Positions 1 through 36,850 of a stretch of DNA of 64,000 nucleotides are shown piece by piece. Within the stretch, counting starts at the first letter, position 1, and every line of letters begins with the position of its first letter. This DNA comes from Phycisphaerae bacterium (GTDB taxonomy: Bacteria; Planctomycetota; Phycisphaerae; Phycisphaerales; SM1A02): positions 1 through 64,000 of the forward strand of contig PARI01000010.1 in the NCBI GenBank assembly GCA_002711415.1. Direction: 5' to 3'. The position numbers and the translations under genes are program-made. The notes under the pieces are model-generated. The model was given only the letters and a program-made list of their open reading frames with translations, did no database searches and was not told the origin of the DNA.

Positions 1-1368
<1,368 letters not shown>

Positions 1369-1444
1369 ACAGGCAAAATTTCAAACAACGAGAACACACA
1401 GCAACTCGACTCCCCGCGTGGGGGTCTCAGACGGAGAACACACG

Positions 1445-1735
1445 ATGGCAGTTCGACCACTTGAAGATCGCATACTCATCAAGCCCGTGGAAGCGGAGAC
1501 CATGACCGCCTCCGGCATCTACCTCCCGGAATCCGCCAAGGAGAAGCCCATGAAGGGCAAGGTCGTGGCGATGGGACCCGGAAAGCTCCTGGACAACGGC
1601 GAGCGGGTCAAGCCCGGCGTCAAGAAGGGCGACACGGTCGTCTACGGGAAGTATTCGGGCACCGAGGTCGAGATCAAGAACGTGAATCACCTGATCATGA
1701 GGGAATCCGAGCTTCTCGGCGTCATCGAGGGCTGA
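1445..1735 (+). CDS. groES: Co-chaperonin GroES
   Basis: The 96-residue co-chaperonin is the heptameric lid of GroEL. It has the usual length and begins MAVRPLEDRILIKPVEAE. A mobile loop with GIYLPESAKEKP is the segment that contacts GroEL, and it is followed by the GKVVAMGPG beta-barrel strand. The ATG at 1445 is chosen because GGAG at 1433-1436 sits 8 nt upstream; in-frame codons further upstream would run into the groEL1 tail. It lies between two groEL genes, 76 bp after groEL1 and 53 bp before groEL2, probably in one transcript. No CIRCE-type operator is visible here; the true operon promoter is outside the window. Confidence 0.97.
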   Translation: MAVRPLEDRILIKPVEAETMTASGIYLPESAKEKPMKGKVVAMGPGKLLDNGERVKPGVKKGDTVVYGKYSGTEVEIKNVNHLIMRESELLGVIEG

Positions 1736-1788
1736 TCGGATCGACACTGGATCACCAAGCAACCACACACACCTAGTCGGGATACACC

Positions 1789-3402
1789 ATGTCCACCAAG
1801 CAGATGAAATTTGATACAGGAGCGGCAGCGGAGCTGCTCCGTGGCGTCGACCAGATCGCCCAGGCAGTCGCAGTCACGATGGGACCGACCGGTCGCAACG
1901 TCGAGCTCGAGAAGTCCTACGGTGGTCCGAGCATCACCAAGGACGGCGTCAGCGTCGCCAAGGAAGTCGAGCTGGAGGAGCCGTTCGAGAACATGGGCGC
2001 CAAGCTCGTCAACGAGGTCGCCAAGAAGACGGCCGACCTGGCTGGTGACGGGACGACCGCGGCCACGGTGCTTGCGCAGTCGATCTTCTCTCATGGACTC
2101 AGGCATGTCGGTGCCGGTGCCAATGCGGTCGCCATCCAGCGGGGAATCAATTCCGCCGCGAAGGTCGCCAGCGAGGCGATCTCCAACGCCGCATGCAAGT
2201 GCAAGGGCAAGGACGACCTGAAGAAGGTCGCCACCGTCAGTGCCAACCATGACACCGAGATCGGCGAGATCATCTCCGAAGCCATCCACCAGGTGGGTGC
2301 CGACGGTGTCGTGGAGGTCGAGGAGGGCAAGACCGCCGACATGACCCTGGACTACGTCGAGGGCATGGCGTTCGACAAGGGCTTCCTGAGCCCGTACTTC
2401 ATGACCGATCCCAAGCGTGCCGAGTGCATTCTCGAGGATCCGATGATCCTGATCCATGAGAAGAAGATCAGCAACCTCAACGACCTGCTGCCGCTGCTGA
2501 ACAAGACGGCTTCGTCCAGCAAGCCGCTGCTGATCATCGCCGAGGACATCGAGAACGAGGCCCTCGCCGCCCTGGTCGTCAACAGGCTCCGAGGCGTGCT
2601 GAAGGTCTGTGCCGTCAAGGCACCGGGCTTCGGCGACCGCCGTAAGGCCATGCTCGGCGACATCGCCGCGCTGACCGGTGGGGAGTTCTTCTCAGAGGAC
2701 ATCGGAAGGAATCTCGAGGACATCGAGCTGAAGGAACTCGGCAGCGCCCGAAAGGTCGTGATCACCAAGGATGACACGACGATCATCGAGGGCAGCGGCA
2801 AGAAGAAGCAGATCGATGCCAGGGCGAGCCAGATCAAGACCCAGCTCGATAAGAGCACGAGCGACTATGACCGCGAGAAGCTGCAGGAACGTCTTGCCAA
2901 GCTGACCGGTGGCGTCGCGATCATCAGTGTCGGTGCTGCGACCGAGACCGAGATGAAGGAACGCAAGGATCGCGTCGACGACGCGCTTCACGCGACTCGT
3001 GCTGCAGCCAAGGAAGGATACGTCGCAGGTGGCGGCGTCTCCTACATCAGGGCGATCGATGCCGTCATGAACGGACGCAAGAAGGCGACCGGTGACGAGA
3101 AGCTCGGATTCGATATCATCGCGGACGCGATGGCCATGCCGACGTACCAGATCGCGTCCAACTCCGGCATCGATGGCGACCTGGCCGTCGAGACCATCAG
3201 AAATCAGAAGGGTGGATTCGGACTCAACGCCTCCACCGGCGAGTACGAGGACCTGATCAAGGCGGGGATCATCGATCCCGCCCTGGTGTCACAGACCGCC
3301 CTGACCAACGCCGCGAGTGTCGCGGGCCTGATGCTCACGACGGACGTGATCGTCACCGAGTTGAAGGATGACGAGGAGCCCGTCGAGGGCGCCACCTTCT
3401 GA
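1789..3402 (+). CDS. groEL: Chaperonin GroEL, copy 2 (no GGM tail)
   Basis: A complete 537-residue chaperonin 60. It shows the N-terminal ATP site ([32 protein letters not shown]), an apical domain and the [20 protein letters not shown] block. It differs from GroEL1 in its C-terminus, which ends in an acidic stretch ([14 protein letters not shown]) instead of Gly-Gly-Met repeats. It also has a Cys-containing insert-like stretch ([11 protein letters not shown]) near residue 130. The ATP-contacting loops are intact, so it should be an active ATPase. As in other bacteria with several chaperonins, it may serve special clients or form mixed rings; that is inference. It is followed by a long hairpin and then dnaJ. 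Confidence 0.96.
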
Positions 3403-8075: not shown

Positions 8076-9368
8076 ATGACCATCACATATCGCGTGGCAA
8101 TCGTGCTGGTTTCCTCGCTGTTCATCGCGCTGCCTGCGAAGGGGTTCCAACACAGTCGGACCCGTTGCCTGTATTCACCAACAAGCAGCATCGAGGACCG
8201 ATTTGGTTCCAGCATCGACATCGAATCCGGACTCCTGATCATCGGTGATCGCAATGACGACACCGCAGGAACCAATGCCGGGTGCGCCTGGGTTGTGCTT
8301 CATGGACCCGGTGGATGGGTGTTCTTGGAGAAACTGATTCCATCCATGCAGGCGGACCACCAGGCACTCGGCCATGCTGTTTCGCCCGACGGTCGGACGG
8401 TCGCGATCGGATCCCCCGGGGCCTCCAATCAAGACGAACTGCCGATCAGTGCAGGCAGCGTCATCGTGTACAGGGTGCAAGCATCGGGACTGCACGAGGA
8501 TGGAAATCTCCTTCATCCGGACCCGGATTCATGGGACCGGTTCGGCCAGGCCGTGGCTCTCCATGGCGATACCATCGCCGTGGGATGTCCGAGAGACGAT
8601 ACGTCCGGAAGTGATTCGGGATCGGTTCACATGTTCAGGAAAGCCGGAGGAGACTGGCTGCACGAGGGCACGCTCATTCCATCGGATGGTGAAGCACACG
8701 ATCAATTCGGAATGAGCGTGTCTCTCGGCAGCGATCTGGTCATCATCGGTGCGCCAGGAGACGATGATCGGGGCCTCGATTCCGGTGCGGCGTGGATATT
8801 CAGGAGATCACCGGAGGGATGGATTCCGTCATCGAAGATCCATCCTCGACAGCCTGGCGATTTCCAGTGGTTCGGATTCTCCGTCACCACAGACGACCAG
8901 GCGTTCGCGATCGGATCACCCCTGGCCGGCACCACGCCTCCGAACCATGGCCGGGTCGACATCTACGGGATCAATGGCTCGAAGCCGGAGTTGACTCGTT
9001 CCATTCGATCACCACTGGGTGGTGATGACGACTGGTTCGGATACAGCGTCGACATGAGTTCCGGTCGGCTGATCATCGGTTCGCCTGGAGCGGATCTCTC
9101 GAATCTGGAGGAGGGGTGCGCCTGGATCGTGCACGAGGTTTCCGGCGACTGGCATCTCAAGAAAGTACTCAGACACGGCTCGCCGCAGGCCGGCTACCAG
9201 TCGGGGCATTGCGTCGGCATCGACGGCGAATTCGAGGCGATGGGACGATACGATCACGAGGACGAGGAATCCAGACCGGGAAGTGTCTGCGTGCGTCAGG
9301 CCATCGATCCGGAGTACGAGTTGTCATCGGTGACCGATGACGGGGTCTCCTCGGATGATTCAAGGTAA
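8076..9368 (+). CDS. Secreted FG-GAP repeat protein
   Basis: A 430-residue exported protein of unknown function. An N-terminal signal peptide (YRVAIVLVSSLFIALPAKG) is followed by about seven repeats of the FG-GAP/integrin-alpha-like type. Each repeat has a FGxSV/I core, an IGSPG or VGCPRDD turn and a DSGAAWIF or GSVHMF strand (for example DRFGQAVALHGDTIAVGCPR and DQFGMSVSLGSDLVIIGAPG). Seven such units would close a beta-propeller. Such proteins are usually extracellular and bind calcium or ligands. The last 73 bp overlap the 3' end of the convergent dus gene, so the two C-termini are encoded by opposite strands of the same DNA. A possible -10 (TACGCT near 8031) gives a short leader. Confidence 0.85.
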   Translation: MTITYRVAIVLVSSLFIALPAKGFQHSRTRCLYSPTSSIEDRFGSSIDIESGLLIIGDRNDDTAGTNAGCAWVVLHGPGGWVFLEKLIPSMQADHQALGHAVSPDGRTVAIGSPGASNQDELPISAGSVIVYRVQASGLHEDGNLLHPDPDSWDRFGQAVALHGDTIAVGCPRDDTSGSDSGSVHMFRKAGGDWLHEGTLIPSDGEAHDQFGMSVSLGSDLVIIGAPGDDDRGLDSGAAWIFRRSPEGWIPSSKIHPRQPGDFQWFGFSVTTDDQAFAIGSPLAGTTPPNHGRVDIYGINGSKPELTRSIRSPLGGDDDWFGYSVDMSSGRLIIGSPGADLSNLEEGCAWIVHEVSGDWHLKKVLRHGSPQAGYQSGHCVGIDGEFEAMGRYDHEDEESRPGSVCVRQAIDPEYELSSVTDDGVSSDDSR

Positions 9369-10474
9369 TACTGGTCGATCACATCCCGCCATTGCCTGGA
9401 GTTGGAACAGTTGATGAACTGCTTTCTGACCTGCTCCCCCTCCGGGTGGTGATGGGAGAACTTGATGCCGAACTTCCTCATCATCCGACCGGCACGCTGC
9501 TCGCCATGGATGACCATGGAATAGTCGAAGTGATGAAGCAGGGCCTCCCGTTGTTCCGAGATGGTCGGTTCCAGGACTGGCTCACCTTGCATCAACTGCC
9601 TCGCCTGCCTGAAGATCCAGGGGTTGCCGATGCATCCCCTGGCGACGGATACGGCGTGGACACCGCAGTACTCGAGCATCGCGAAGATGTCATGGACCTC
9701 CCAGATGTCGCCGGAGCCGAAGATCAGTCGGTCCGGGTATCGACGGACCAGGTCCCGAAGAAAATCCCACTTGCCCGGACCGATGTACTTCTGCTTCACG
9801 GTCCTGCAGTGAACGGTCGCCCATGAATACCCCATCTCGTAGCTCGCCTCGAAGATCCGGTAGAAGTTCTCCGCCATCTCGGACGTGTCATCGAAGGCGC
9901 GTCGCAGCTTGAGGGTGCAGGGAACATCGTCAGGGACCGCCTCGCGAACGGCATGAAGCACCTCGATCGCATCATCAGGATACGCAAGAAAGTGACCTCC
10001 CCTGTTGTGCTTCCGGATCTTCTTGACGGGACAGGCCAGGTTGACGTCGATGACGTCGTAGTTCATCCCATGCAGCAGGGCTGCGGCCTGGGCCATCTCC
10101 CCGGGGAGCGTCCCCATCACCTGCCCGGCGATCGGGTGATCATCCAGTCCGGCGATCTTGTTCTCATCCGGATCGCCCATGCCGCACTCGGAGGCGATCA
10201 GGTCAGGATCCTCCTTGCGACGTGCCTTGCCACCATTGATGAGCGTTCGATCCAGCAATGCCTCGGTCACGCAGAAGGGACAGCCATACCGTCGGGCGAC
10301 GAGCCGCATGGCACCATCGGAGTACCCGGCCAGTCCGGCCTGAAAGAACGGCGCATCGAAGCCGGGAACGAGTCGTCTGATTCGCGAATCGACCGTGGTC
10401 GTGGACGCGATCTGATCGATCGATCTTTCCAGGCAGGGCCTGGAGACGCCTTCTGGTTCCATCTCGACTGACAT
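9296..10474 (-). CDS. dus: tRNA-dihydrouridine synthase (Dus family)
   Basis: A flavin-dependent enzyme that reduces uridine to dihydrouridine in tRNA. The 392-residue protein has a TIM-barrel start (FFQAGLAGYSDGAMRLVARR), a substrate and FMN region (QVMGTLPGEMAQAAAL) and the active-site block DVNLACPVKKI with the proton-donating Cys near residue 150. Downstream are HCRTVKQKYIGPGKWDF and IFGSGDIWEV. It is longer than DusA/B/C, with a 30-residue N-terminal extension and a Ser/Thr-rich C-tail that overlaps the FG-GAP gene. The start ATG has a TATCAT box exactly 6 nt upstream, so the mRNA may be leaderless. The first codons lie in a 156-bp repeat duplicated at 13245-13400. Confidence 0.9.
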   Translation of the reverse strand: MSVEMEPEGVSRPCLERSIDQIASTTTVDSRIRRLVPGFDAPFFQAGLAGYSDGAMRLVARRYGCPFCVTEALLDRTLINGGKARRKEDPDLIASECGMGDPDENKIAGLDDHPIAGQVMGTLPGEMAQAAALLHGMNYDVIDVNLACPVKKIRKHNRGGHFLAYPDDAIEVLHAVREAVPDDVPCTLKLRRAFDDTSEMAENFYRIFEASYEMGYSWATVHCRTVKQKYIGPGKWDFLRDLVRRYPDRLIFGSGDIWEVHDIFAMLEYCGVHAVSVARGCIGNPWIFRQARQLMQGEPVLEPTISEQREALLHHFDYSMVIHGEQRAGRMMRKFGIKFSHHHPEGEQVRKQFINCSNSRQWRDVIDQYYLESSEETPSSVTDDNSYSGSMA

Positions 10475-10480
10475 GCCAAC

Positions 10481-10486
10481 ATGATA
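10481..10486 (-). promoter_or_regulatory. Putative -10 box of dus
   Basis: TATCAT on the minus strand ends 6 nt before the dus ATG, which would put the transcription start on the A of the start codon. The box is duplicated intact in the second repeat copy at 13277-13282. Confidence 0.45.
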
Positions 10487-10513
10487 CAGGCAGGTGGTGC
10501 ATTATCCGGCTGC

Positions 10514-10604
10514 TCAATCGGACGCATCGTCCCCGGCGGAACCATCCTTTGATTCCTGGCCGTGGGCAGGCCTGATACCGGTCCTGTTCAACTTGATCGA
10601 ATAC
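10514..10604 (-). pseudogene. Duplicated 3' fragment of the SMP-30-like gene
   Basis: The minus strand encodes YSIKLNRTGIRPAHGQESKD and nine further residues before a stop. This matches the intact C-terminus of the gene at 13310-14272 with one amino-acid change (Thr to Pro). No upstream coding sequence of that gene is present here, so this is a non-functional remnant created by the repeat duplication. Confidence 0.9.
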
Positions 10605-10680
10605 GATGAGGTACCACATGCAGCGCGGGGCCAGGAACCTGCGACGTCCAGCCGCAAATAAGAAGAACTGGATTTCCAGA

Positions 10681-11751
10681 TCAGGGCCTGTTCAATCGGC
10701 TGATTTGCTTGGCCAATTCCTCAGATATCTTCATGGCACTGGCTGAATCAAGGTGGCTGCCGTCGTACTGGCGAAGTTCGAGCGTGTCAGGCAAGTCCAA
10801 CCAGATGCCACCATGATCCATGAAATCAGTGCGCAGTTGCCTGAAGTCCACGTTGAACAGTTGTTCCTCGTAGGATGCAATATCCTCAGACACTGGCACC
10901 CTGAATGACACCACCATGATCCCCGCGGAGGTCCACTCGCGTGTCTTTGCAAGAAATTGGTGGATATTGCCCTCATCCGTCTCGTACAGATTCTTTCTTT
11001 CCTTGAGTGTCATCTTCCATTGTTCACCAGGGTTCTCGACGTGTCGGTCAGAGGCCACCCAGCCATTGAGATGAAACAACTGATTGTATTCGCCTTTTAT
11101 TGCACTCTTACGGCTTCTGAATGACTCCATGCCTGCCCACAATGCGAACGAACGAATGATCGTATCTGGTCGGTAGCGTCGGAACTGAATGAGACCTTCG
11201 TCGAGGATTCGCTTGAATTGAATAGGAAGTTTGTTATCCAGATTGTCCTGCACTGCATTCGTGTATCCACTGCCAGCCGCTTCCCGGTTCGTGAATGAAA
11301 ATGCGGATATTCCAAAGATGATGGTGGGTACTTCAGCTGAGGCATCAACCACCTCACGAACATAGTCGAGATATGGCGAACTTAATTTTTCACTACTGAA
11401 GCCAATATTCAGTGCCCTGATCTCTAACTGACGCTCGAAGATTGATGGGTCAACACCACGGTATACACGGGAATCACCTGCAATGACCAATGGACATTCC
11501 TCGATCCAGTTGGCCTTCATCATCCAATACCAATCTGGATCCCTCGACTCTTGAGGATCGTTCCGTGTGAGTCCGATCAACAGGACAAGGGCAAATGCGA
11601 CGGCCATGGTGATGGCTGCAGGATCCCTGTAAGCAGGACAACCACGTTGATCAGGGCCCGGTGGCAACCAGTTGATCGTCGGATCTGGAGAATCATAGAT
11701 GATCGACTCTGCATCCCGTGTTTTAGAACTGGAAGTAGATGAACTCATCAC
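10681..11751 (-). CDS. Membrane-anchored SGNH-like protein (AlgJ/AlgX/DltD-type acetylation partner)
   Basis: A 356-residue protein with one N-terminal membrane anchor (AITMAVAFALVLLIGLT). A periplasmic SGNH-hydrolase-like domain follows: block I is VIAGDSRVYRGVDPS, and the C-terminal catalytic-type Asp/His block is YDGSHLDSASAM. Proteins of this kind act with an MBOAT membrane acyltransferase to put O-acetyl groups on an extracellular polysaccharide or wall polymer. The MBOAT gene is immediately upstream, and the two coding regions overlap by 29 bp. The substrate cannot be told from the sequence. The gene has visibly lower GC than its surroundings. A weak hairpin with a T-rich tail follows on the minus strand near 10657-10672. 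Confidence 0.75.
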   Translation of the reverse strand: MMSSSTSSSKTRDAESIIYDSPDPTINWLPPGPDQRGCPAYRDPAAITMAVAFALVLLIGLTRNDPQESRDPDWYWMMKANWIEECPLVIAGDSRVYRGVDPSIFERQLEIRALNIGFSSEKLSSPYLDYVREVVDASAEVPTIIFGISAFSFTNREAAGSGYTNAVQDNLDNKLPIQFKRILDEGLIQFRRYRPDTIIRSFALWAGMESFRSRKSAIKGEYNQLFHLNGWVASDRHVENPGEQWKMTLKERKNLYETDEGNIHQFLAKTREWTSAGIMVVSFRVPVSEDIASYEEQLFNVDFRQLRTDFMDHGGIWLDLPDTLELRQYDGSHLDSASAMKISEELAKQISRLNRP

Positions 11752-13129
11752 CTTGCCCTCTCAGAAAGATCGCCATCAGGATGCCAACAACCACCAGAGT
11801 TCCTCTCCTGAGCTGACTTGACTCTTCAGGTCGCCTGACCATACGCAGTGCCTGCAGGGCCCAGTAACCACTGAATACAAGGCTGAGCAAAAGGGCCATG
11901 CCGGATCCAGCATCCATCGCATCTATCATGCCAACCAATTTCCAGTTACCAAAAAACATGGCGGCAATGATGTCAAAGGCCTGGCCGATTGAATCGGCTC
12001 TGAAGAATATCCAGCCGACAAGCACACCCACCATCGTGATGATCCAGCCCAGGCACTGCCTGAATCGAGAGAGCCCTGCATATGCCACACCAGGGATTCG
12101 CTCAAGCAGGAGAAACAAACCATGCAGCCCTCCCCAGGCAAGAAAAGTCCAGTTTGCGCCATGCCAGAGCCCAGAGATCAGCATCGTGAACATCAGGTTC
12201 ATGTTGGATCGTGCAGCACCGGACCTTGAGCCTCCAAGTGGTATGTAGACATAGTCTCGAAACCATGTAGACAGGGAGATGTGCCATCGCTGCCAGAATT
12301 CCCTGAAACTCCTTGCTGCATACGGCTGTCGAAAATTCTCTGGGTATCGATAGCCAAGCCACCTGGCAATTCCACATGCTATGTCTGAATAGCCGCTGAA
12401 ATCTGCAAAGATCTGGATGGCGAAGAGGATTGCTGCCAACCACCACAACGGAGCATCGGGGGTCACATCAACCTGACCGAAAATGCTGTTGACCACTGGC
12501 GCAATATTGTCGGCAATAACGAGCTTCTTCACGAATCCCCAAGTCGCCTGCTGGACTCCTGCCATACGATTGGCCTTGTTGAAATGGCCCGGCGTCTCGA
12601 GTTGCGGGAGGAGATCTCGTGCACGAACGATCGGGCCTGCTACCAGTTGGGGAAACATCGACAGGTATGAAAAGAAGTGAAGTGGGTTGCGAACAGCGGA
12701 CATGCGACCCATGTATACGTCTATGGTGTAGCTCATCGACTGAAACGTGTAGAAACTGATTCCGATTGGCAGGATCACGGAGTCAGTCCATCCCCACTGA
12801 GCATCAGGAATATCCAGAAAATATCGTAGTTGCTCGACTCCAAAGGACAGGTACTTGAAGAAGACCAGGGAGCCGATGTTTGCAACGATGGAGAAGCACA
12901 GAAGCATGCGACGCCAACCTGGCTTCCGTACCATCAGGTATGCGGCCACGAAGTCGATCAACCCCGTACCCATGAGCAGGAACAGGAAACGCCAATCCCA
13001 CCACCCATAGAAGATGAAGGAAAACACGCAGATGGTCACCCATCTACGGTTGTTTCCTTGTCGAGCCCAATCCCAGGCCATCATCAATGCCAGCATCAGA
13101 ATCAGGAATGGGATCGAAGTAAATGACAT
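11723..13129 (-). CDS. MBOAT family membrane O-acyltransferase (AlgI/DltB-like)
   Basis: A polytopic membrane acyltransferase of 468 residues that moves acetyl (or another acyl) groups across the membrane to a polymer. Family marks are clear: LMVRKPGWRRMLLCFSIVANI, the LPIGISFYTFQSMSYTIDVY block and the long motif YPENFRQPYAARSFREFW with WRHIS-type residues (QRWHISLSTWFRDYVYIPLG). The catalytic-type His is in SGLWHGANWTFLAWGGLHG. The N-terminus is hydrophobic from residue 1. The next gene overlaps by 29 bp and is the expected SGNH partner. Low GC and the flanking repeats suggest acquisition by transfer. No polysaccharide synthesis genes accompany the pair. Confidence 0.9.
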   Translation of the reverse strand: MSFTSIPFLILMLALMMAWDWARQGNNRRWVTICVFSFIFYGWWDWRFLFLLMGTGLIDFVAAYLMVRKPGWRRMLLCFSIVANIGSLVFFKYLSFGVEQLRYFLDIPDAQWGWTDSVILPIGISFYTFQSMSYTIDVYMGRMSAVRNPLHFFSYLSMFPQLVAGPIVRARDLLPQLETPGHFNKANRMAGVQQATWGFVKKLVIADNIAPVVNSIFGQVDVTPDAPLWWLAAILFAIQIFADFSGYSDIACGIARWLGYRYPENFRQPYAARSFREFWQRWHISLSTWFRDYVYIPLGGSRSGAARSNMNLMFTMLISGLWHGANWTFLAWGGLHGLFLLLERIPGVAYAGLSRFRQCLGWIITMVGVLVGWIFFRADSIGQAFDIIAAMFFGNWKLVGMIDAMDAGSGMALLLSLVFSGYWALQALRMVRRPEESSQLRRGTLVVVGILMAIFLRGQGDEFIYFQF

Positions 13130-13165
13130 CTTCTGGTGTGATGAGTCTACTTGAAAGCCAGCGTA

Positions 13166-13270
13166 TCAATAGTGGTTGCAGGACTTGGAAAGACTCAATA
13201 TGCAATGAAAGCCAATTTGGACCATAGTGAAAGTTATGGATACACCTTCTGGTTCCATCTTGACTGACAT
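13166..13270 (-). pseudogene. Truncated 5' copy of dus with its promoter
   Basis: Within the right repeat copy the start of dus is duplicated: MSVKMEPEG against MSVEMEPEG in the real gene. After about nine codons it runs into unrelated low-GC sequence and stops after 34 codons. The TATCAT box 6 nt upstream of the ATG is retained, so this fragment could still be transcribed towards the inserted genes. Confidence 0.8.
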
Positions 13271-13400
13271 GCCAACATGATACAGGTAGGCAACAAGTTC
13301 TCCGGCTGATCAATCGGACGCATCGTCCCCGGCGGAACCATCCTTTGATTCCTGGCCGTGGGCAGTCCTGATACCGGTCCTGTTCAACTTGATCGAGTAC
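13245..13400. repeat. 156-bp direct repeat, right copy
   Basis: Partner of 10449-10604, in the same orientation and without gaps. It contains the intact 3' end and stop codon of the SMP-30-like gene and only the first codons of dus. The right copy therefore belongs with the SMP-30 gene and the left copy with dus. Confidence 0.95.
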
Positions 13401-14272
13401 AGGCCGGTTCGGGCAGTGATGTAAAGCGTGTCGAACTCTGTCCCACCGATCGTGCAGTTGGATGGCCCCTCGGGCACATCGACCGACTCGATGATCGAAC
13501 CATCGGGATCGATGACCAGGATCTTCCGACTGCGCGGCTGCGTGATGTACAGGGTTCCAAGGGTGTCGCAAGTAAGACCATCTCCTCCACCCTCAAGCTT
13601 CGCCAGCCTGCCACCCTTCCCAAGAACGCCCGGCGATGTGATCGAGTAGGCCATGAGCTCGGGCTGACCTGCAGGAAGCACGTACAGGGTCTTCATGTCG
13701 GGCGAGAGAAGGATCCCATTGGGTCGCCTGAATCCATCAAGGATCCTCGTCACCTTGCCGCCGGAATCGCTGTAGTAGACCGCTTCATCAAGAGTCGAAT
13801 CCGGATTCCGCCAGTACGCAGGATCCGTGAAGTAGACGCCGCCATGCTGATCAAGAGCGAGATCATTGGTCGTGATGAACGGGCTGTCCTCGTACATGGT
13901 CACCAGAGGCGTGATCTTCTTGGTCGCCGGATCGATGCGGACGACACGCCCCTTCTGCCCCTGGCAGGCGACGAGTCGTCCATCCTTGTCGAACTGCAGA
14001 CCGTTGCACCCATCGGTGCGCTCCATCACCGTGTGGATGCTTCCGTCCTCGTCGCAGCGGAGGATCTGTGACCGGGCGATGTCCGTGAACCAGATCCGTC
14101 CACGGCCGTCGGGCGCGGGGCCCTCGGTGAACTCGAATCCACCGGACACCTTCTTCAACTTCCCGTCAAACACGGATCCTGTCTCGCCGACCTGTTCGGG
14201 AGTGCCGGCCTGTTCGGCCTGGATCGAAGCGGACAAAGCGACCATCAAGAACATGAGCATGGAAGTGATCAT
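13310..14272 (-). CDS. Secreted SMP-30/gluconolactonase-like beta-propeller protein
   Basis: A 320-residue protein with a signal peptide (MITSMLMFLMVALSASIQA) and a six-bladed SMP-30/gluconolactonase fold. The metal-binding residues are in the expected places: Glu in FTEGPAPDGRG, Asn in TTNDLALDQHG, Asn in RRPNGILLSPD and Asp in GGGDGLTCDTLG. Family members hydrolyse sugar or other lactones, but many planctomycete paralogues have unknown substrates. The start has a strong GAGGAG site 7 nt upstream (14280-14285). The 3' end lies inside the 156-bp repeat. It was probably the direct upstream neighbour of dus before the insertion. Confidence 0.85.
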   Translation of the reverse strand: MITSMLMFLMVALSASIQAEQAGTPEQVGETGSVFDGKLKKVSGGFEFTEGPAPDGRGRIWFTDIARSQILRCDEDGSIHTVMERTDGCNGLQFDKDGRLVACQGQKGRVVRIDPATKKITPLVTMYEDSPFITTNDLALDQHGGVYFTDPAYWRNPDSTLDEAVYYSDSGGKVTRILDGFRRPNGILLSPDMKTLYVLPAGQPELMAYSITSPGVLGKGGRLAKLEGGGDGLTCDTLGTLYITQPRSRKILVIDPDGSIIESVDVPEGPSNCTIGGTEFDTLYITARTGLYSIKLNRTGIRTAHGQESKDGSAGDDASD

Positions 14273-14295
14273 CGGTGTTCTCCTCGTGAGGCCCC

Positions 14296-14301
14296 ACTAT
14301 A
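14296..14301 (-). promoter_or_regulatory. Putative -10 box of the SMP-30-like gene
   Basis: TATAGT on the minus strand lies 23 nt before the start codon, leaving room for a short leader with the GAGGAG ribosome binding site. In contrast with several neighbours, this gene looks leadered. Confidence 0.4.
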
Positions 14302-14345
14302 CGCCAGGAACCTGGCGACCGAGACAGGACGCTTCGGCGATCGGC

Positions 14346-15119
14346 TCAGGGTGATTCCTCCACGACCAGATCGCCGGTGCCGATGGTTCCCGTGGTGATC
14401 GTCCTGGCATACACGCCCAGGCACGGGCTGGGCCCACCATCGCCCAGTACCAGTGCATTGTGGTCCGCAAGCGTCTTCAGCACCGCCGGATCACCTGGCA
14501 GATCGCCCTGGGCCATGGTGGTCATGATGCAACGCGAACAGGGACGGGTGAACTCGATGACCAGGTCGACGCCTATCCGGATCCTCCTGCCGATCCATTC
14601 GTTTTCCACGAATCCTCCCGTCGATCCCGGGAAGTCGATCAGCAGGTTGGGGCGGAAGCGATCGATGGCCGGTGCAGAATCCGGATGAAGCTGCTCCAGG
14701 TGCGCCATGGTCCCTCGATCGATCACGTGCAGGGGCGCCAGGTCGAAGAAGGCGGGCTGATCGTGCGCGGCGGCTCCCAGCGTCGTGGGAAAACCGAATC
14801 GCCGGCTCAGGAGATCATCGATCCCAGGATCACTGCTGGAATACCTGGCACCGTCGGGAAACTCCAGGATCACCGGGCACGGCCACTCTCCACCACGCTC
14901 CTGCTCGAGATGAACCTCGACATCCATCAGGTTGCCCCACCGCGAAGCCTGCTTCGCAGACGCGGGGCGATCGTCCTGGACATCAAAGAGTGCCAAGCCG
15001 CGATCACCGGGAATACCGTGTTCGCCAACGAAGATGGAATCGACCCGGTGACCACGCATCGACTTGACCGGGTAGAACCAGATCCCGTGAACGAGATGTT
15101 CAGCTTCGGACGCTCCCAC
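14346..15119 (-). CDS. MOSC domain protein
   Basis: A 257-residue protein with the N-terminal MOSC beta-barrel (HGIWFYPVKSMRGHRVDSIF, GDRGLALFDV) and the C-terminal MOSC core (FRPNLLIDFPG, PCSRCIMTT with the conserved Cys). MOSC proteins bind a molybdenum-sulfur cofactor and reduce N-hydroxylated compounds or sulfurate enzymes; the exact substrate here is unknown. The GTG at 15119 is chosen because CAGGAG sits 6 nt upstream and the MOSC fold begins right after. An ATG at 15191 in the same frame would leave only 8 bp to the divergent lipoprotein gene and add 24 residues not seen in the fold. Confidence 0.85.
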   Translation of the reverse strand: MGASEAEHLVHGIWFYPVKSMRGHRVDSIFVGEHGIPGDRGLALFDVQDDRPASAKQASRWGNLMDVEVHLEQERGGEWPCPVILEFPDGARYSSSDPGIDDLLSRRFGFPTTLGAAAHDQPAFFDLAPLHVIDRGTMAHLEQLHPDSAPAIDRFRPNLLIDFPGSTGGFVENEWIGRRIRIGVDLVIEFTRPCSRCIMTTMAQGDLPGDPAVLKTLADHNALVLGDGGPSPCLGVYARTITTGTIGTGDLVVEESP

Positions 15120-15185
15120 GTCATGCTCCTGGACAACCAACCGATGGAATCCGCTGATGGTAGCACCGGATCCACCGAATCGTGG

Positions 15186-15191
15186 TAGCAT
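15186..15191 (+). promoter_or_regulatory. Putative -10 box of the lipoprotein gene
   Basis: TAGCAT ends 8 nt before the ATG at 15200, which implies a leader of only a couple of bases. Confidence 0.3.
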
Positions 15192-34249: not shown

Positions 34250-36850
34250 ATGACACCATCAAGCAGGAAATCACGGTCGAGCAGCAGGATTGGAAGCCTC
34301 CTGGACAACACCCCGGGAGGGCTGCTCTGGATGAGAATCGCATGGATCGCCCTCCTGGGCTGCTGGCTGTTCCTGGTCCTGAGCCTGGCCAGCTTCAACG
34401 CCGAGGACCCCCCCAGCCACGTCGTGAGTCACCACAATGATCCGGTGGCCAACCTCTGCGGCTGGGTCGGCTCGACCACGGCCTACTGGATCAAGGTCTC
34501 GATCGGCAATGGGGCATGGATCCTGCTGGCTGGTGCCGGACTGGCCCTGTGGGTGACCGCGGCGGGCGGGCGGATCGGTCACCCGGTCGTTCGATTCGTC
34601 GGCCTGGTCATGATGGCCATATCGGTCTCATGCCTGCACGCCCTCTGGTTCTCCGGAAGCGGCAGCCTGACCGGAGCGGAGGCGGGAATGCTCCCCATGT
34701 TCCTGGTCGACCAGCTTGAACAGCGGTTCAACGGCGTCGGCGTGTCCCTGATCCTGCTGGTCAGCCTGGCCATGGGCACGGTCGTCGCAATCGACCAGTT
34801 CGTTCTGGCGCTTCCGGGCCTGATCCGGAAGGGTCTGGGGTCACTCGAACCACTGCGGAAGATGAAGCCGCACCGATTCGCTTCGAGGTTCAAGCTCGCC
34901 AACATCCCCGTCCTTGCCGGAATCGGTGGACGTGGCGGCTCGATCCAGCACGAACTGGATGATGAGTACGAGGAGGAAGAGGACTACGACGGCGAGTACG
35001 AGGATGAGGAGGAGGAATACGAGGACGAGGACATCGATGACGAGGGGTACGCCGAGGAGGACGAGTACGAGGAGGATGAGTACGAATACGAGGACGAGGA
35101 AGAGGACGAGGAAGAGGCCCCCCCACAACCCAGGCGTGCACGGCCGGCGGCCCAGGAACCTCCTCGCAAGCTCAGTTCACGGGAACTGAAGGACAAGATG
35201 GACAAGCTGCCGCTCCGCATGTCCAACCAGTCGACGGCCGTCGCCAAGGACGAGGACATCCCACGTGACGAGGACTACAAGGGATACCAGTTCCCGACCC
35301 TGGATCTGCTGGAGGATCCTGAGTCCAACTTCAGTGCGAAGATCGAGGCCATCGTCCGTAAGCAGGCCCAGCACCTGGAGGAGGCGCTGCACAACTACCA
35401 GATCCATGCGGAGGTCACCGGCATCGAGAGCGGCCCGGTCGTCACGCTGTTCTCGATCCAGCTGGCTCCTGGAACACGGGTGGCGCGGCTGCAGGCGATC
35501 TCCCTGGACATCGCGCGTGCACTGGGTGCCCAGAACATCAGGATCCTTCCGAACATGGAAGGCAAGACCACGGTCGGAATCGAGATCCCCAACAAGCAGA
35601 AGGAGAAGGTGAGGCTGAAGGAACTGATGTCCGGCGGCCACGCCAAGGGCATGACCCTACCGATGTTCCTCGGCAAGGACTCCGCAGGGGAACCGCTGGT
35701 CGAGGATCTGACCAAGATGCCGCACATGCTGATCGCGGGCAGCACCAACTCCGGCAAGAGCGTCTGCATGAACACGATCATCATGAGCTGGCTGTACACC
35801 AAGCGGCCGGATGAACTGAAGCTGATCCTGGTGGATCCGAAGATGGTCGAGATGAACCAGTTCTCGCAGATCCCGCACCTGATGACCCCCGTCGTGACCG
35901 AGACTGCTCGAGCGGCCGGCATCCTCGAATGGGCCGTCGGGAAGATGGAGGAACGCTACGAGCTTTTCAGGGAGGTCGGCGTCCGGAACGTCAGTGCCTA
36001 CAACGAGCTGGAAGAGCAGGATCTCTACGAGCGTCTCGAACTCACTGACGAGGTCGAGCAGGCCAAGGTACCCAAGAAGCTGCCGCTGATCGTGTTCGTG
36101 ATCGACGAGTTGGCGGACCTGATGATGACCAACAAGGACGTCGAGCACTCCATCGTGCGAATCGCCCAGAAGGCCAGGGCCGTCGGGATGCACCTGATCC
36201 TGGCGACCCAGCGACCCCAGGCCAACGTCGTGACCGGCCTGATCAAGAGCAACATGCCCAGCCGGTGCAGCTTCCGGGTCGCCAGCGGCATGGACAGCAG
36301 GATCGTGCTGGACCAGAAGGGTGCGGAGCTCCTGCTTGGTCAGGGCGACATGCTCTTCCAGTCACCGGAGATCTCCGAGATCAGGCGGGCCCAGGGCACG
36401 CTGGTCACGGATGGTGAGATCCGCAAGGTGGCGAAGTTCCTCAAGACCGTGGCCGGACCGAGCTTCGAACGCAGCCTGATGAAGATCCGGCCCGGTGGTG
36501 GCACCTCGGGTGACGAGGACGGCGAAGTGAGTGCTTCGGAACGGGATCCGCTGTTTGGAAAGGCCGTGGAGATCATGATCGAGTCCGGTCGTGGCTCGGT
36601 CTCCCTGCTCCAGCGTCGGCTCGCCATCGGGTACAGCCGGGCCAGCCGGCTCGTAGACCAGATGGGACTGGCCGGAATCCTCGGTGAGCACAAGGGATCC
36701 GTTGCCCGCGAAGTCATGATCTCGCTGGAGGACTGGCAGCGGATGCAGGCCATGGAAGACGGTCACGAGGAGGAGGATCTGCAGGACGGCATGACCGAGG
36801 ACCAGGACGAGCCGGTCCCGGCCGAGCTCGAGGGTGAGTACCTGGACTGA
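34250..36850 (+). CDS. ftsK: DNA translocase FtsK
   Basis: A septum-located DNA pump that clears chromosome dimers and aligns termini during division. The protein has about 866 residues. Four membrane helices fill residues 30-200 (IAWIALLGCWLFLVLSLASF and others). A remarkable acidic linker follows at about 235-290: some three quarters Asp/Glu with nine Tyr. The motor comes next, with Walker A MLIAGSTNSGKSVCMNTIIM, Walker B LIVFVIDELADLMM and RPQANVVTGLIKSNMPSRCS, and the DNA-binding gamma winged helix (LLQRRLAIGYSRASRLVDQM). The ATG at 34250 has GAGGG upstream. An in-frame ATG at 34211, 9 nt after TTTAGT, is an alternative start. Confidence 0.95.
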   Translation: MTPSSRKSRSSSRIGSLLDNTPGGLLWMRIAWIALLGCWLFLVLSLASFNAEDPPSHVVSHHNDPVANLCGWVGSTTAYWIKVSIGNGAWILLAGAGLALWVTAAGGRIGHPVVRFVGLVMMAISVSCLHALWFSGSGSLTGAEAGMLPMFLVDQLEQRFNGVGVSLILLVSLAMGTVVAIDQFVLALPGLIRKGLGSLEPLRKMKPHRFASRFKLANIPVLAGIGGRGGSIQHELDDEYEEEEDYDGEYEDEEEEYEDEDIDDEGYAEEDEYEEDEYEYEDEEEDEEEAPPQPRRARPAAQEPPRKLSSRELKDKMDKLPLRMSNQSTAVAKDEDIPRDEDYKGYQFPTLDLLEDPESNFSAKIEAIVRKQAQHLEEALHNYQIHAEVTGIESGPVVTLFSIQLAPGTRVARLQAISLDIARALGAQNIRILPNMEGKTTVGIEIPNKQKEKVRLKELMSGGHAKGMTLPMFLGKDSAGEPLVEDLTKMPHMLIAGSTNSGKSVCMNTIIMSWLYTKRPDELKLILVDPKMVEMNQFSQIPHLMTPVVTETARAAGILEWAVGKMEERYELFREVGVRNVSAYNELEEQDLYERLELTDEVEQAKVPKKLPLIVFVIDELADLMMTNKDVEHSIVRIAQKARAVGMHLILATQRPQANVVTGLIKSNMPSRCSFRVASGMDSRIVLDQKGAELLLGQGDMLFQSPEISEIRRAQGTLVTDGEIRKVAKFLKTVAGPSFERSLMKIRPGGGTSGDEDGEVSASERDPLFGKAVEIMIESGRGSVSLLQRRLAIGYSRASRLVDQMGLAGILGEHKGSVAREVMISLEDWQRMQAMEDGHEEEDLQDGMTEDQDEPVPAELEGEYLD

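Follow-up and report, generated by a model that had tools for sequence, protein, structure and literature searches.

An MBOAT-SGNH gene pair between copies of a gene end at two loci in Phycisphaerales

The genome of a marine-type Phycisphaerales bacterium carries a low-GC operon, coding for an MBOAT-family O-acyltransferase and an SGNH-like protein, between two copies of the junction of its dus and SMP-30 genes. The explanation that we favour, and to which we give about an even chance, is that this foreign operon of ~2.6 kb entered by recombination at the SMP-30 3' end and left the 156-bp junction in duplicate, as in insertion with long target duplication. A homologous pair again lies between copies of its target gene's end, that of queC, in a genome of another genus (G032), so the module probably entered by recombination and not as a transposon. 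The initial annotation had preferred recombination to an insertion sequence, which is still the best reading and with which the independent queC case agrees. Many small foreign segments of bacterial genomes have no recognisable mobility gene, and little is known of their entry route. One and the same two-gene module occurs here in two genera and at two different target genes, each time between long copies of a gene end, and the relatives of G032 allow native and incoming sequence to be separated.

The duplicated junction and the genes it encloses

The window, i.e. the whole stretch of DNA analysed, comprises the opening 64 kb of a contig of 141 kb, in a genome of 2.8 Mb that is 94% complete and assembled in 45 contigs. 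Both relatives that were traced by name are metagenome bins from Phycisphaerales. The features of the locus are as follows.

9296..10474, minus strand: dus, tRNA-dihydrouridine synthase, intact (Pfam PF01207, E 3e-45)
10449..10604, minus strand: repeat copy 1, the distal one, joined to dus; orphan 3' end of SMP-30, intergenic sequence and first 26 bp of dus
10605..10680, minus strand: module tail, 76 bp, from the SGNH stop to the distal repeat
10681..11751, minus strand: SGNH-like membrane-anchored protein, 356 aa, with the catalytic blocks GDS and D-x-S-H
11723..13129, minus strand: MBOAT-family O-acyltransferase, 468 aa, DltB/AlgI-like (Pfam PF03062, E 9e-31)
13130..13244, minus strand: module head, 115 bp outside the repeat and upstream of MBOAT, from the repeat limit to the MBOAT start
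13245..13400, minus strand: repeat copy 2, proximal, attached to SMP-30; SMP-30 3' end, intergenic sequence and orphan first 26 bp of dus
13310..14272, minus strand: SMP-30/gluconolactonase-like gene, intact (Pfam PF08450, E 2e-44)
14346..15191, minus strand: MOSC-domain gene (Pfam PF03473), absent at this place in the nearest genus

The copies at 10449-10604 and 13245-13400, spaced by 2,796 bp, align without a gap over 156 bp with 143/156 identical positions (91.7%) and 13 differences, which bears out the two gapless direct repeats of about 92% identity reported in the initial annotation. A BLAST match within the 140-kb contig reaches to 10441/13237 (164 bp, 90.9%, E = 3e-59). Read on the minus strand, each copy consists of the final 91 bp of SMP-30 including the stop, 39 bp of intergenic sequence and the first 26 bp of dus; each is thus a copy of the dus/SMP-30 junction with both gene ends, as had been proposed. 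The perfect runs between the copies measure 56, 30, 25 and 16 bp, and homology breaks off sharply at both limits. The pair of repeats is not due to chance: in 1.99 Mb of the source genome, only two other loci have a repeat of at least 70 bp and at least 90% identity at such a spacing, and one of them is ambiguous. Direct repeats flanked 10-18% of the small variable segments surveyed in three species, most of these repeats being shorter than 30 bp (PMC2884548), so repeats as long as those of the window are unusual. The differences between the copies amount to 2/91 in the SMP-30 part, 10/39 in the intergenic part and 1/26 in the dus part, and seven of the ten intergenic ones form one contiguous block. 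Counted with this block as one event, the uneven spread has P = 0.11, and the suggestive polarity of the window, with higher identity in the gene end and lower identity beyond it, leans largely on these seven bases.

Both enclosed genes are coded on the minus strand and overlap by 29 bp. The MBOAT protein, in which the WHG motif is invariant, has DltB (6bug, 8jem) as its relatives in the PDB and matches the NCBIfam model LTA_dltB with E 4.5e-46, under that model's cut-off. The call of the SGNH-like protein stands on its GDS and D-x-S-H blocks, which are unchanged in four homologues. Foreign origin of the module is well supported by composition. Ranked against the 1,037 ORFs of the genome that reach at least 250 aa, the GC content of the MBOAT gene (52.2%) lies at the 1.6th percentile and that of the SGNH-like gene (49.9%) at the 0.7th, i.e. 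both are in the lowest 1-2%, in keeping with the low-GC segment noticed earlier; their synonymous codon usage falls at the 3rd-5th percentile. Both genes are therefore outliers from the genome average, whereas SMP-30 and dus have an ordinary composition.

The predicted function of the pair is probably the O-acetylation of a secreted polysaccharide. Pairs of an MBOAT and an SGNH protein that perform O-acetylation include AlgI/AlgJ and PatA/PatB. The present pair is similar in that a DltB-like MBOAT adjoins a membrane-anchored protein with SGNH blocks, but differs in its SGNH partner, which has no sequence match in Pfam, NCBIfam or the PDB and belongs to a rare family, found in 4/400 genomes of the order. 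In the relatives G123 and G132, genes for a hexapeptide acyltransferase, a glycosyltransferase or a sugar oxidoreductase occur close to the pair, which places it in probable polysaccharide loci. No flanking repeat was found around the pair in G123 or G132, although the G123 contig starts inside the MBOAT gene.

Several carriers were considered and rejected. An insertion sequence or composite transposon is at odds with the lack of a transposase ORF in the segment and with a duplication of 156 bp, which is too long. An integrative element with its own tyrosine recombinase gene was set aside, as the inserted segment holds no recombinase, a point already made in the initial annotation. Plasmids give only short matches to the MBOAT, and phages no match to the SGNH-like protein; 11 viral contigs carry MBOATs at 35-45% identity.

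A second case behind queC and the proposed course of events

In G032 a homologous pair directly follows queC and is enclosed by 111-bp repeats of that gene's 3' end; six congeners have queC without the pair, as a single target with no insert. The queC repeat of G032 was the only comparable one in ~774 kb of overlapping loci of relatives. The two copies show no difference over their first 83 bp and eight over the last 28 bp (29%), six of which fall at third codon positions; the clustering has P = 1.6e-5 for a uniform spread. The distal copy runs on into sequence common to the congeners, and its tail differs from five of the six at 4-6 positions, against 9-11 for the proximal tail, which forms the present end of queC. 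Judged from these comparisons, the native copy is the distal one and the tail of the proximal copy is foreign, and the incoming DNA thus probably carried its own gene end. The pattern of differences accordingly points to a crossover inside queC with an incoming, diverged queC end, and not to random decay of a duplicate.

This pattern bears on a local origin of the repeats, in which a staggered break or template switch would have copied the recipient's own 156 bp, captured foreign filler and left the copies to mutate. The sharpness of both limits in the window is consistent with it, as are the 13 differences, which fit drift if the 7-base block was one event, and the identical first 83 bp in G032 are expected under it. 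However, the clustered, mostly third-position differences of G032 (P = 1.6e-5) and its foreign proximal tail need an incoming homologous gene end, and no Ku gene was found in the source genome; we consider a local duplication decidedly unlikely.

Under the favoured reading, i.e. insertion by recombination, the incoming DNA would probably have brought along an SMP-30/dus junction of its own, derived from a related strain. Through a crossover in the common SMP-30 3' end, SMP-30 would have acquired a donor-derived 3' flank (copy 2), and the native gene end with its junction (copy 1) would have ended up beyond the module, beside dus. Copy 1 is then probably the native junction and the downstream part of copy 2 probably donor-derived, by analogy with G032. 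The polarity is alike at both loci: identity is higher in the gene end than beyond it, in the window only suggestively so, the target gene has a complete 3' end and the displaced end is distal. We infer that the window copy arose as in G032, and that ordinary homologous recombination was responsible. A circle may have entered by one crossover, or one end of the incoming DNA may have been anchored by homology and the other joined without it. G032 has an identical stretch of 83 bp, a foreign tail and a sharp distal limit, which fit such an anchor and join; in the window the limits are sharp on both sides.

Some observations count against this explanation. A donor junction with only the first 26 bp of dus is an unnatural arrangement and needs an earlier event, and a plain crossover of a circle does not predict 83 identical bp followed by 29% difference in G032. 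Moreover, the 94% complete source genome has no match to ComEC, which counts against natural competence as the route, and the lack of a Ku gene there also counts against end joining. Conjugation is an alternative route of DNA entry (PMC3240628).

Insertion with long target duplication has been reported for restriction-modification modules in Helicobacter (Nobusato et al. 2000, after PMC1643837, PMC3031569 and PMC4978471). Our case resembles it in that a foreign pair without a recombinase lies between long direct repeats of target sequence and, at queC of G032, relatives have an insert-free site. It differs in that the cargo is an acyltransferase pair (the insert holds only the MBOAT and SGNH genes and no restriction-modification genes), the host belongs to Phycisphaerales and one repeat copy of G032 is partly foreign. 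A further likeness is found with the effector modules of the Vibrio type VI secretion system, for which displacement of native sequence by anchored recombination has been proposed (PMC5361080): in this homology-facilitated illegitimate recombination, a conserved stretch anchors the incoming DNA and the native sequence is pushed downstream. The displaced item is here a gene 3' end with the start of the next gene and not an immunity gene, and, as a further difference, no ComEC was found. What is new here is the kind of cargo and the lineage, and further that one module recurs at two gene ends and that a repeat of G032 is partly foreign. Such loci are a sequence record of recombination that adds genes without wrecking a neighbour. 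The repeats also predict that clean loss of the module is possible: a deletion across them, plausible and possible in principle, would restore both neighbours, since each copy holds both gene ends; the longest perfect run between the copies, 56 bp, exceeds the RecA threshold cited for E. coli, roughly 30 bp (PMC2884548).

Possible site-specific integration and a tRNA-Gly locus of the same genome

Some islands integrate in the 3' ends of tRNA or protein genes and restore the target gene from their own copy. The present locus is similar to such tyrosine-recombinase islands in that the target gene is left with its 3' end complete and the displaced end is found on the far side. The repeats could accordingly be attL/attR-like sequences left by site-specific integration at gene 3' ends, with a tyrosine recombinase acting in trans or since lost, a possibility that we hold to be real but on the whole somewhat improbable. 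The same polarity in the window and in G032, with the complete 3' end kept and the displaced end distal, would fit it. However, the module has no recombinase, and no common 9-mer or longer core appears when the SMP-30 and queC junction regions are compared, a comparison that a short or degenerate core would escape. The window repeat also crosses the intergenic region into the next gene, exceeding a typical core. The genome has four tyrosine recombinase genes (PF00589), on contigs C10, C22 and C45 and far from the module; the two on C10 are probably Xer and the other two are on phage-like contigs.

Support for site-specific integration comes from a third site, on contig C5 of the source genome (C5:54267-57839; L189:14267-17839), where a tRNA-Gly(gcc) is accompanied by two decayed copies of its 3' half. 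The 3' half from the anticodon loop, together with the terminator, is repeated around a 488-aa low-GC ORF and a 427-aa ORF, and no recombinase lies near this cargo. In two of the three tRNA-Gly copies there is also sequence resembling the final ~30 bp of a DEAD-box helicase ORF. The T loops of both partial copies have changes in common that are absent from the intact tRNA, so the second duplication came after the first remnant had decayed. The site looks like a case of site-specific integration at a tRNA, with what look like two successive integrations, and its anatomy keeps this rival open for the window. More speculatively, the MBOAT-SGNH pair could be a compact mobile cassette of Phycisphaerales without its own recombinase, which repeatedly enters gene 3' ends and duplicates 110-160 bp by recombination or by a recombinase in trans; we regard this wider idea as unlikely.

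Other repeats were seen in the source genome. A 98-bp repeat of 99% identity (C5:1-98 / 2619-2716; L137) surrounds an 844-aa FG-GAP-type ORF beside a fur-like gene. It may be a further case or a tandem paralogue, and was not counted because of its position at a contig end and this possible paralogy. Weaker repeats elsewhere are mostly paralogous genes, a tRNA pair or on a phage-like contig. In addition, contigs C22 (L235) and C45 (L236) share an integrase-like gene (94% identity over 3 kb), behind which lies a low-complexity repeat array; C22 seems phage-like.

History of the neighbourhood

The initial annotation had taken the dus/SMP-30 junction to be ancestral, which does not hold beyond this lineage. 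In the nearest genus (G005 and G108) dus lies ~350 bp from a small gene that the window has beyond MOSC, with neither SMP-30 nor MOSC in between. Among the SMP-30 relatives listed in 181 family genomes none has dus beside it, and none is on the contig of a listed dus. SMP-30 and MOSC are therefore lineage-specific at this place, and the junction is older than the module yet specific to this lineage. Compared with the nearest genus, the segment from dus to the small gene (window 10475-15181) has gained at least four genes (SGNH, MBOAT, SMP-30 and MOSC) and may be an insertion hot spot. The insertions of the window and of G032 are at the ends of one conserved block consisting of dus, rnr, grpE, dnaJ, groEL, queC and gyrB.

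The assembly itself, fragmented in 45 contigs and with strain variation (a 2.7-kb overlap of C2 with C9 at 99.3%), could suggest that the repeats are an artefact of mixed strains. However, 13 sites distinguish the two copies, which lie on one contig and symmetrically on either side of the module, and G032, an independent assembly, has the same anatomy with a homologous module, making an artefact highly improbable. Window positions 82-2818 overlap contig C2 of the same genome over 2.7 kb at 99.3% on the reverse strand; the two contigs adjoin at the groEL genes and are probably held apart by strain variation. Contig C2 carries queC without the module. Finally, an acidic, degenerate run of GAG/GAC-rich repeats at window positions 34955-35127 probably codes for a Glu/Asp-rich protein segment.
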